Positions 18,381-61,359 of a DNA stretch of 64,000 nucleotides are shown piece by piece. The translations under genes and the position numbers were made by a program. The notes under the pieces were generated by a model. It ran no database searches, was not told the origin of the DNA, and saw only the letters and a list, made by a program, of their open reading frames with translations. The DNA is from Styela clava (taxonomy: Eukaryota; Chordata; Ascidiacea; Stolidobranchia; Styelidae): positions 5,238,001 through 5,302,000 of the forward strand of contig NC_135264.1 of the NCBI RefSeq assembly GCF_964204865.1, read 5' to 3'. Position 1 is the stretch's first letter; the number at the start of each line of letters is the position of its first letter.

Positions 18381-21300
18381 ATGCTTCAACAGCGCTATTT
18401 ATTGCTTATATCAACATGCGTTTTGTTGATATCAAAGTCAGGATCCGTTCCAGTAGAGGAGGTAAGCAATGGTTTGGATAAAATATAATAGGACAAATTA
18501 CTATAGTAGAATGCCATTACCTACGAATGAAATAAGTAGCAAATACAGATTCGTTGTCTTTTTTCTTATGGGAATCTTTTTGCTATATTTTTCCTTTTTC
18601 TATGTCAACTGAGTAAAAAGACTGAAATAATATTTTAATGTAATTCAGTTTGTAATGTTTTCGTGCCTGTTTTATTTATCATTGTGATCACCCAGGTACG
18701 GTCGAGTCATCGAACATTGTATTAAAATTTTGCTTTACAAAATTTAATATCGTCATGTGAAATAATGCAAAATGTTTAATTAAAATTTCCCAAGAAGAGT
18801 TTTTGCTTAGTCATACATTCTTTAATTAATGAAATATTGGCAAGCTTGAACTGATTTTTCTCACACGTGATATATGATTTATTATTATTACATCATTGAT
18901 CATTTTCTGTGTATGCGCGTGGGTGCGTCAATAAATTACGTGTTTTTCCACGCAACTATATTCTCATCAATTTTTGTCATAATGATTTGTGAAATTACGA
19001 AGTAATTTCCTTTTCCAAGTATCCACACACGGATACATTTTTTGAAATCGCGGAATACTGGAAAGGTACGTTATGAAAATTAAGAAAAACGGCATTAAAT
19101 GTATAAATTTGGAAAAAAAGGGGACTAAAAGAATGCCGTAACTTGACGAAACGTAAAACACTGTGGTATTGCCTCTATTTTGAACACGATATGAATGAGT
19201 TTACAATAAAAATATTCTATTTTCAGATTTCCTCTGATCTGAGTGCCCAATCGGTGGACAAGAGCGCGGGAGAAAAAGTAAGGAGAATTTCATCATACAT
19301 ATATTTAGTCTAATATTAATTAATGCCGTTTCTGGCAAATATCTGAATACCTCATTGAGAGATTCTGATTATTTATGATTATAGTTCTTTCATTTGATGT
19401 AATCCTGAAAGTTTATATATAATGCTATAGGTGTTCATATCACTCATTTACGCTGTATTTGAAAGGATATTTCATTTATGAAAATAAATAGTAATAAAAA
19501 CAAGTGTTTTCCAATAAAACTATCGATTCAATTTGCGTTTTGTAACGCTTTACTTAGTAAACATGCGGAAAAGTTGTTTCCCGTCGGCGCTTCCGTATTC
19601 TCACCCCATGGTAGTGTGAATATGTAGCAGGAAGTTGCCTATTTTTGTTACGCAAAATAACAGAAAAACAGACAGCAACAAATTATAATGACACCATGCG
19701 TGGTCATGAATTAAGTGCCTGCACTTATTCCAAGATCGCAAGCGACGCTGGTTGGCGTGCGTAAAGCATCACGCAATTTTACGTGATCTGTTACTTACGC
19801 ATGCGTAACAGGAATGCCACGCACCAGACGTCTGCACTCAATTCGATTGAAATGCAATTCTTACTTTTATTTCCGGACTTGTTCTTATTCCCAAGGATTG
19901 ATAATTACGTGTTTACTTCTAATTCTTAATCCATGTTTTTTTTTAACTTTCAACAGGAAATAAAGGACATGAAAGATTTTTTTAAACGTTATTATGAATT
20001 TGAAGAAGATCTGAACTTGGGAGAGAGCTCAAAAGATGGTCATGGTGGGGCCAATACTCCTATAATTGATGTCACAGAAACTCCATCATTTATGGAACGT
20101 GTTATTAAACTCCAGTTGGATTTTAAATTAGAGCCAACAGGTGAGATGGGAGAAAAGACACATTGATTGGTGTCTCTATATGGATAGTTAAGCAAAAAAA
20201 CATTTGTTTTTAAGACAATAGTATTTCACATTTCAGTTTGTTTATATTCAACAAAACATTATGGTAAATACAAAACTAAAAAAGTTTTCTTATTTGAATT
20301 AAGACTATTTCGAGTTTTTTTTCACAGAATAAGGTAAAAAAAAAACGGCTTTATTCGTATTGTATCTTTTTAAGGTAAACTGAGTCACGATTTGGTGAAA
20401 AAAACGAAACAGACTGATCGATGCGGAATGACAGATCCGCCGAGAGATGATGACGCCCCATCGAATTATGTTGTTAAAAGTTCTTGGGACTCAAAATACG
20501 ATTCTAGAAACAAGCGATATCATTTGACATACTCGTGAGTGATATATTTCCCAGTATATTATTTTGAAATTTGACTCTATGCATTCAAATCTAATACAAA
20601 TACATATCATCCTATTTAAACAGGTTTTTAAGAAATACATTTCCCTCAAAGTTAACCGAACGAGTTATAAAACAAGGAGTTCTGAGTGCAATGTGTATGT
20701 GGGAATGGAATTCCAACGTCCGGTTTACAAAAGACATTGGGGATAATAAAGAAAACATTGCTGATATTTCAATCGCCTTTGGTTCGGGTAAGGACGGGCT
20801 ATAGTTTCCAATTATGAGTAAATTTCTCATAGCATAGCTGCTTAAAACGATAAAGGCATACCAACTGATTTTTAAACTGATAGCTTGAAACTCGGTCAAA
20901 TAACAAAATCATTAAATTTGTACAAAAATGCATTTTTTAAAAGATGTTATCCACTATTCAATTTACTGCTATTTATTATATTAATCTTTCAAGCATATGC
21001 ATCTAGTAAGTAGATTCTAGTTAGTCAAAACCGTCACTTAAGCTCCATTATTCTGGTCTAATTTCAGGTGACCATGGAGACAGATTTAGTTTTGATGGGA
21101 AAGGTGGAACATTGGCACATGCGTTTTATCCTGAAAATGGCAGATTACATTTTGATACAGATGAATCGTGGTATCTATCAATCGATGATAATCGTGAGTA
21201 ATTATTCTACATGAACCAATCGCCTTTTTTACGCTAGAAATATAATATAATTAAAATAATGACAATATATTTCAGAAATTTGGAGTGACAGAGATATATT

Positions 21301-60600: not shown

Positions 60601-61359
60601 AGCACCCATTCGAAAAGTATCAAAACTTTGTGTACCGTATTTATTTAAGAATTTGGTCATTTTCTGAATGTAAATGGTGAATAAAATTATTGTATTTCAT
60701 TGTTAATAAAAATAATTTATCGCAGTTTTAATACTGACAGAACCTTTTAGAATAAAATGAAGTTAGAATAAAATGCAGCCTCTGTGATTGTATCGCTGTA
60801 ATGTTTGATTTTGCTCATAGTTCCAAAATTATATAGATGCATTTATCGGTACGGGATAATGATAGCTATCGAGTAGTGCAGTCAAGTCTAGAATGATACT
60901 ATCCCTAACCAGTTAACGATTTTACATTAAATTTCATTCAGCCAAATATCACTCAATAAATTTACAAATTTAATGCAATAAATTCAAATCGATACAAAAC
61001 AACTATAGTGATTGTTTTTTAAATTTTTTCGTCTTGTAAAATTTGTCCATGACAAACCAATTATTGAATGACTGTTGAAAATTTTTGTATTTTGAGGATG
61101 GAAAAATTCCATGCTGAAAAGTAAGGAAAATAATTCTTGCAAGGCTTGGACAATACCTATATGTTAAACCATTTTAGTTCAAATGTATAATATTAAATAA
61201 TACAATTTATTGTGAGCCCATTTCTTTAAGCTAATATTATATTTAGTATTACCACAAAATACATACCGAGACATTATCTTTTTGTACTGTGGGAGAAGCA
61301 GTTGCATAGTGAAGACTCATCAGCGCAGATATAAGCACTAAAAACGTTAACGACGACAT
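54639..61359 (-). CDS. Matrix metalloproteinase with ShKT and hemopexin domains, GPI type (MMP-3 of cluster)
   Basis: Predicted 687-residue paralogue. Exons in transcription order: 61359-61267, 60663-60492, 59673-59517, 59007-58850, 58766-58641, 58452-58368, 58272-58169, 58080-57958, 57835-57704, 57403-57282, 56488-56266, 55917-55733, 55372-55249, 55083-55002, 54816-54639; all in phase. It has 15 exons because the tiny second exon of the other two is absent. Signal peptide [19 protein letters not shown]; cysteine switch SRCGVLDTP (Cys 104); [20 protein letters not shown]; catalytic [11 protein letters not shown] (249-259), preceded by TTAL; Met-turn AVMAP. ShKT domain Cys 343 to about Cys 381; hemopexin domain Cys 400 to Cys 633; hydrophobic C-terminus after DNGASS, consistent with GPI anchoring. 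It is tail-to-tail with MMP-2. Confidence 0.9.
57485..57664. mobile_element. 180-bp hAT-like MITE with perfect 8-bp duplication, in MMP-3 intron
   Basis: The ends CAGTGGTGGGACTT and AATTCCACCACTG form inverted repeats, and the flanks at 57477-57484 and 57665-57672 are both cacacaag. Internal GAACCGG motifs repeat four times. The insertion is in the intron between the ShKT exon and the first hemopexin exon and does not affect splicing sites. Confidence 0.9.

Follow-up and report, generated by a model that had tools for sequence, protein, structure and literature searches.

Three paralogous matrix metalloproteinase genes of Styela clava with a ShKT exon between the catalytic domain and a putative hemopexin-like domain, and with a GPI-type C-terminus

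According to our gene models, a stretch of 64,000 nucleotides of the Styela clava genome (assembly GCF_964204865.1, contig NC_135264.1, positions 5,238,001 to 5,302,000 of the forward strand; hereafter the window, whose own numbering is used below) carries three paralogous matrix metalloproteinase (MMP) genes, in which a ShKT module stands between the catalytic domain and a divergent, putatively hemopexin-like domain. The exons were rebuilt from the DNA by demanding AG/GT borders and continuous phase, and the splicing is therefore predicted. Gene 1 (g1; 18381..24682, + strand) has 16 exons and encodes 732 amino acids, while gene 2 (g2; 44929..51978, + strand) has 16 exons and encodes 705 amino acids, and gene 3 (g3; 54639..61359, - strand) has 15 exons and encodes 687 amino acids; by gene model and Pfam, both share the architecture of g1, and g3 and g2 are arranged tail to tail. 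In all of them the order is a hydrophobic start, a prodomain, Peptidase_M10, a hinge (Thr/Pro-rich in g1), ShKT, the hemopexin-like domain and a C-terminal tail of the glycosylphosphatidylinositol (GPI) type. Every internal junction of the predicted models is GT-AG, without a single in-frame stop, and the three genes have the exon phases 0-0, 0-1, 1-2, 2-1, 1-1, 1-2, 2-1, 1-1, 1-1, 1-0, 0-1, 1-0, 0-1, 1-2 and 2-0 in common, the exception being one additional small 0-0 exon in g1 and g2.

The whole proteins are about 40% identical to one another, from which it follows that the architecture predates the duplication of the three genes and is probably common to relatives; an old architecture shared by related species is thus likely, where the sequence-only reading had assumed a lineage-specific one. 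Identity is distributed unevenly along the proteins: 53 to 56% in the catalytic domain, 40 to 43% in ShKT, 38 to 42% in the hemopexin-like domain, 23 to 25% in the hinge and 13 to 21% in the linker that follows ShKT. Besides the cysteines of the switch, the ShKT module and the hemopexin pair, four further cysteines are invariant (g1 residues 183, 329, 645 and 700), and these may form two more disulfides joining the catalytic domain, the hinge, blade 4 and the stem. That the genes are pseudogenes is ruled out by their stop-free frames and intact catalytic residues, and that they are recent duplicates or assembly copies is ruled out by the level of identity.

The catalytic domains are those of MMPs, with Peptidase_M10 scores of 142.6, 142.6 and 137.3 bits for g1, g2 and g3, respectively, against a Pfam cut-off of 24. 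The zinc site HExxHxxGxxH, located by motif scan (g1, 21314..21346, +; g2, 48598..48630, +; g3, 58382..58414, -), and the Met-turn (ALMAP or AVMAP) are intact in each protein. The cysteine switch Arg-Cys-Gly is likewise present in all three, at 20419..20427 (+) in g1 and 59624..59632 (-) in g3, both read from the translation and positioned by hand from the exon table, and at 47653..47667 (+) in g2, where the motif scan gave PRCGI; the PRCG form is limited to g2. A furin-type motif, RNKR, lies immediately before the catalytic domain of g1 (20506..20517, +; motif scan, positioned by hand), and a second one, RSRR, was found by the same scan within the hemopexin-like part of this protein. A profile of the three whole proteins comes closest, among PDB structures, to MMP16, MMP10 and MMP3, in chains that comprise the catalytic domain with or without the prodomain (best 60 of 103 matches). 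An astacin identity was rejected, since Astacin was matched only in g2 and under the Pfam cut-off, at 13.8 bits.

The ShKT module is encoded in each gene by a separate phase 1-1 exon, which in our models lies at 22074..22208 (+) in g1, 49251..49379 (+) in g2 and 57704..57835 (-) in g3. All three modules pass the cut-off of Pfam ShK (PF01549; 20.9 bits), with 22.5, 24.5 and 27.6 bits and E values of 1.8e-4, 4.2e-5 and 4.2e-6, and all contain six cysteines with the C-x3-C-x2-C end. The sequence-only reading of the window had placed such an exon at these very coordinates in three genes, behind a HExxHxxGxxH catalytic domain, and both claims hold as made. The g3 module matched the ShTK-domain protein 7l2g (E 0.0014) and aurelin (2lg4; E 0.0059) and, more weakly, the ShK domain of a putative zinc metalloproteinase (2mcr; E 0.029) and that of MMP23 (2k72; E 0.11); the fifth and final match, MalT (E 0.89), is unrelated. 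Since identity is 40 to 43% in the module and far lower in the flanking hinge and linker, a chance stretch with six cysteines is ruled out by conservation in three old paralogues together with ShK scores above the cut-off. We read this conservation amid a non-conserved hinge and linker as pointing to selection that keeps the module.

Beyond the linker, the exons at 22383..24193 (+) in g1, 49638..51268 (+) in g2 and 55002..57403 (-) in g3 encode a C-terminal domain of about 240 to 250 amino acids, whose last residues reach into 24529-24682, 51822-51978 and 54816-54639, respectively. We conclude that it is probably a divergent, expanded hemopexin domain, in which the four-bladed propeller is putative, because of the blade-4 match, a pair of cysteines that brackets the domain, C440 and C686 in g1, and introns placed much as in two gelatinase genes (L039 and L040) of the same genome. 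Gene structure is the strongest support for this homology. By eye, the hemopexin introns of L039 and L040 follow the blade-1 strand in phase 0, the blade-2 strand in phase 1, the blade-3 strand in phase 2 and the blade-4 Asp-Ala-Val-Phe in phase 1, and those of g1 to g3 fall at the same motifs in phases 0, 1, 0 and 1, so that three of four agree and the blade-3 intron is one base off. Four Asp-Ala strand starts can be recognized by eye in g3. When the domains were searched in isolation, Hemopexin was the sole Pfam family matched at E <= 10 in each of them, with 10 bits for g1, 18.1 for g2 and 22.1 for g3, of which the last alone passes the cut-off of 21.3; for comparison, one of the genome's gelatinases scores 75.1 bits with its hemopexin part. 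Eight other MMP loci of the genome supplied 17 blade pieces for a blade profile, which was run with 1000 shuffles per protein. With this profile g1 scored 20.2 bits over four pieces, of which three coincide with blades 2, 3 and 4, against a top shuffle of 9.7 (757 reported), and blade 4 was the best-scoring piece in all three proteins.

The C-termini are compatible with a GPI signal, judged by a simple rule that combines hydropathy with a small-residue omega site. The signal, comprising the omega region and the hydrophobic tail and positioned by hand, spans 24608..24679 (+) in g1, 51910..51975 (+) in g2 and 54642..54728 (-) in g3. The best 15-residue Kyte-Doolittle mean at the C-terminus is 2.32, 2.21 and 2.19, respectively, and no 15-residue window that starts anywhere from residue 41 up to 51 residues before the end exceeds 1.6. 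Small-residue omega candidates lie 19 to 33 residues before the end, with a short spacer, in all three proteins, and none has a cytoplasmic extension. A tail of this kind is also seen elsewhere in the genome: at L045 (C5:13366901-13371900, -), an open frame that follows a hemopexin blade ends in a hydrophobic, GPI-like tail (best window, 1.81), and the ShKT pattern was not found in the stretch of L045 that was scanned.

The search of the genome (376.6 Mb in 379 contigs) with M10 yielded 33 exon matches, which we grouped by eye into about 15 loci, g1 to g3 being three of them. Among the MMP loci compared, a cluster at C5:13.37-13.44M holds the top catalytic relatives of g1 (72.8 bits) and g2 (70.1 bits), and its identity to g2 reaches 58.9% across 56 amino acids of the zinc exon. 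We inspected by eye how the catalytic domain ends in nine other loci: in six of them (L010, L013, L014, L015, L018 and L019, as opposed to L009, L039 and L040) a phase-1 donor lies in the Gly codon of the domain-closing Tyr-Gly, and the corresponding phase-1 intron of g1 to g3 is found a few codons further downstream. An intron in phase 1 is the classical insertion site for symmetric phase-1 modules. Because the introns flanking ShKT are in phase 1 and six of the nine loci likewise have a phase-1 donor where the catalytic domain closes, our data support the view that the ShKT exon was probably inserted by exon shuffling. The sequence-only reading had proposed exon insertion, and also a hydrophobic, GPI-type C-terminus without a cytoplasmic tail; the exon phases agree with the former, and the hydropathy and omega rule agrees with the latter in all three proteins.

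As for the origin of the module, the ShK search of the genome returned 44 matches at E <= 0.001, including those of g2 and g3, with g1 not among them, and the genome thus contains possible ShKT donors. A crude splice-site filter found phase-1 acceptor-like and phase-1 donor-like sequences around 7 of 15 ShKT modules outside the window (L001 to L008), a count that is indicative only, since the same filter missed the sites of all three ShKT exons of the window. The six-cysteine ShKT pattern was absent on the coding strand of 16 stretches around ten other M10 loci, each scanned singly (the scan reached only 1.5 kb downstream at C17:19.26M, C16:5.60M and C5:13.38M, and a weak match at C9:6.77M was left out), and it was absent on both strands at the non-window M10 loci among L009 to L038. 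Since the C5 cluster contains the best catalytic relatives of g1 and g2, and since L045, with its hydrophobic tail, is located there, we infer, though not from a tree, that the ancestor may have been surface-tethered and that ShKT would be the added part. Two side observations concern these loci. L039 and L040 (C17:7.977-7.997M) form a tandem pair of gelatinase-type MMPs which, by eye, have fibronectin type II-like inserts within the catalytic domain, as MMP2 and MMP9 do; such a pair would be in keeping with a chordate. Several ShKT matches are clustered at C9:1.097-1.106M, C5:11.07M and C6:7.70M, which perhaps encode multi-ShKT proteins.

On these grounds, we propose, with a probability of roughly 60%, that g1 to g3 are old MMP paralogues whose products are latent, GPI-tethered zymogens, and that their ShKT exon was inserted at a phase-1 hinge intron and serves as a docking spacer. 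The products would be made as latent zymogens, held so by the cysteine switch, would be secreted and would most likely be held on the outside of the cell by a GPI anchor; these steps, from zymogen through secretion and surface tethering to the zinc protease, are proposed because well-known MMP biology and the sequence concur. For activation the prodomain would be removed; a furin-type convertase acting on RNKR is plausible for g1, and other proteases for g2 and g3. The phase 1-1 ShKT exon would have been inserted into an MT/GPI-type MMP before the duplications, beside the phase-1 intron where the catalytic domain meets the hinge, and would encode a rigid, disulfide-stapled docking module (an exosite or spacer) that places the protease on a partner in the membrane or the matrix. 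The degenerate hemopexin-like domain might also dock, or hold the fold. A docking role is preferred because ShKT is common on invertebrate astacins and because the ShK domains of a pearl-oyster astacin are needed for its effect on proliferation. Modules of this kind are widespread on the astacins of invertebrates, sea squirts and lancelet among them, and according to one review the main sites of expression of these astacins are barrier epithelia or the digestive tract (PMC9848320); the ShK domains of the pearl-oyster astacin are required to promote cell proliferation (as cited in PMC10828956). Some points count against this account as a whole. The motif scan found no furin motif at the prodomain border of g2 and g3, and with such a motif in g1 alone the three proteins are probably activated differently. 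Among the loci compared, the top catalytic relative of g3 is C17:19.26M (59.3 bits), narrowly ahead of the C5 cluster (58.5 bits). Finally, domains, exon phases, conservation and tail composition are read directly from the DNA, whereas GPI anchoring and the activation route go beyond it and docking would be carried over to these proteins from the ShKT family.

The interpretation of the C-terminal half has to be weighed against two alternatives. One is that the domain downstream of ShKT is some other Cys-bracketed fold and not a hemopexin propeller, which we hold to be very improbable, although a number of results speak for it and against the hemopexin assignment. Searched in the full proteins, Pfam Hemopexin was unreported for g1 at E <= 1 and gave 11.5 bits for g2 and 16.7 bits for g3, all below the cut-off. 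In a PDB search with the profile of the three domains, MMP14 was the sole match, at E 0.95. When this profile was aligned with the gelatinase pair by hhalign, only blade 4 was aligned, with a probability of 29%, which fell to 2.6% with the addition of a third, distant hemopexin (from a C6 locus); in the three-sequence comparison, one column shuffle in 100 scored as high in each of the two modes, local and global. With the blade profile, g3 (7.6 bits; top shuffle 7.8, 645 reported) and g2 (0.1 bits; top shuffle 8.2, 683 reported) stay within the range of their shuffles. The agreement of introns is also one of motifs: distances within exons and exon lengths differ from those of the gelatinases, the blade-4 break of g1 lies three codons closer to Val-Phe, one additional intron near the end of g1 to g3 goes beyond the gelatinase set, and the blade-1 break of two C5 genes (L014 and L016) is shifted by one base. 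What tips the balance toward hemopexin is that no other Pfam family matches the isolated domains, that the introns nonetheless resemble those of the gelatinase hemopexin exons and that g3 retains its four Asp-Ala strand starts. The sequence-only reading, which had described a Cys-bracketed hemopexin domain, is therefore at its weakest here: the Cys pair, the intron positions and the isolated g3 domain speak for it, the scores of the full proteins do not; of the three Pfam families with which it had suggested checking the architecture, Peptidase_M10 and ShK exceed their cut-offs in every protein, while Hemopexin does not in any of the full ones. The other alternative concerns the anchor, in that the proteins could be type I membrane proteins without a cytoplasmic tail, or be secreted after cleavage. 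The simplicity of the hydropathy and omega rule favours it, as does the tail of g3, which is the least hydrophobic (Kyte-Doolittle mean of the last 14 residues 1.61, versus 2.09 and 2.05) and has polar residues at its end. We consider it unlikely all the same, given the omega candidates, the short spacer and the terminal hydrophobic stretch that all three proteins share.

Two further alternatives concern the use of the ShKT module itself. Skipping of its phase 1-1 exon would leave the reading frame intact, and the preceding hinge exon is symmetric as well in all three genes, so the ShKT exon might be an alternatively spliced cassette, with two products from each gene, one containing ShKT and the other a plain GPI-type MMP. 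There is a small chance of this, as the conservation of the module in three old paralogues indicates its retention in at least some transcripts. In the other case, along the lines of the potassium-channel block suggested by the sequence-only reading, the module would be a modulator of potassium channels, as in vertebrate MMP23, and would add an activity other than proteolysis or provide a channel partner. The domain family and the position after the catalytic domain are as in MMP23, and the weak matches of the g3 module to 2mcr and 2k72 point the same way. Human MMP23 modulates Kv1 with Arg-Leu in the place of the dyad (PMC6409789, and PMC10828956 for the Kv modulation), and a Brugia metalloprotease has in its C-terminal domain, BmK1, a blocker of Kv1.3 (PMC5793123). 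In ShK, the residues described as key for Kv1.3 are Lys22 and Tyr23 (PMC5793123). At these positions, which we located in g3 by alignment to MMP23 2k72 and in g1 and g2 by alignment of the three modules, we found Glu-Thr in g1, Arg-Thr in g2 and Gln-Thr in g3; the Arg of g2 at the Lys position is in favour of channel activity, but none of the three has the Lys-Tyr dyad. AsK132958, a sea-anemone ShKT peptide devoid of the dyad, showed no activity on the Kv channels tested, and a further peptide that does carry the dyad was likewise inactive (both PMC5793123). Moreover, ShKT is frequent, with 44 matches in this genome and many on invertebrate astacins (PMC9848320), and for this reason its presence alone is no pointer to a channel. 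We judge a channel function to be improbable for g1 to g3, as nothing in the window appears to indicate one, and retain docking as the preferred role of the module.

MMPs are usually described under a short list of architectures. Among these, MMP17 (MT4) and MMP25 (MT6) have a cysteine switch, M10, a hinge, hemopexin, a GPI-type tail and a furin motif. Our three proteins resemble them in the cysteine-switch prodomain, M10, the hinge, the Cys-bracketed, putatively hemopexin-like domain and the candidate GPI-type tail, with the furin motif as in g1, and differ from them in that ShKT stands between the catalytic and hemopexin-like domains, the hemopexin part is very divergent and g2 and g3 are devoid of the furin motif. 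MMP23, which has an N-terminal anchor and no classic cysteine switch, shares with g1 to g3 the combination of M10 and a ShKT module; the cysteine switch, the putative hemopexin-like domain and the C-terminal tail set the three proteins apart from it. Human MMP23 has ShK and Ig-like domains (PMC1867822), while no immunoglobulin (Ig) family was matched in g1 to g3 by Pfam at E <= 1. The same source describes zebrafish MMP23 as being without ShK and the human and rodent proteins as having it, and for a time no human protein other than MMP23 was listed as having a ShKT domain (PMC5793123). The invertebrate ShKT astacins (M12A), those of sea squirts and lancelet included, likewise join a zinc metalloprotease to a C-terminal ShKT (PMC9848320), but the metzincin family differs, as the M10 scores of 137 to 143 bits make plain. 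Ciona intestinalis, with MMPa1-3, b, c, d and e, offers a comparable MMP set of an invertebrate chordate; the excerpt of PMC1867822 mentions ShK for MMP23 and not for the Ciona MMPs.

Among the literature matches listed, partly in excerpt, no description was found of an MMP that has ShKT and hemopexin together, and the architecture would thus consist of familiar parts in a combination that these matches do not describe. A more far-reaching view, which we put forward only tentatively, is that M10-ShKT-hemopexin-like-GPI proteins may constitute an undescribed MMP subfamily across an animal clade, in which ShKT was joined to the protease independently of MMP23, or which represents a hemopexin-bearing ancestor of MMP23, the latter having exchanged its hemopexin for an Ig domain. 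A GPI-type MMP that has acquired ShKT in its hinge and retains a hemopexin-like domain would provide a second natural experiment on the role of ShKT in MMPs, and its architecture is a possible intermediate toward the origin of MMP23. The clean phase 1-1 borders of the exon would make in-frame removal of the module straightforward.

As for the rest of the window, Pfam gave no match at E <= 0.01 for three other open reading frames. Two similar genes on the - strand, at 25.8-27.9 kb and 38.2-40.3 kb, sit between g1 and g2. The former has EGF-like and ZP-N Pfam matches, the latter was judged by its similar reading frames only, and the two look like tandem duplicates.

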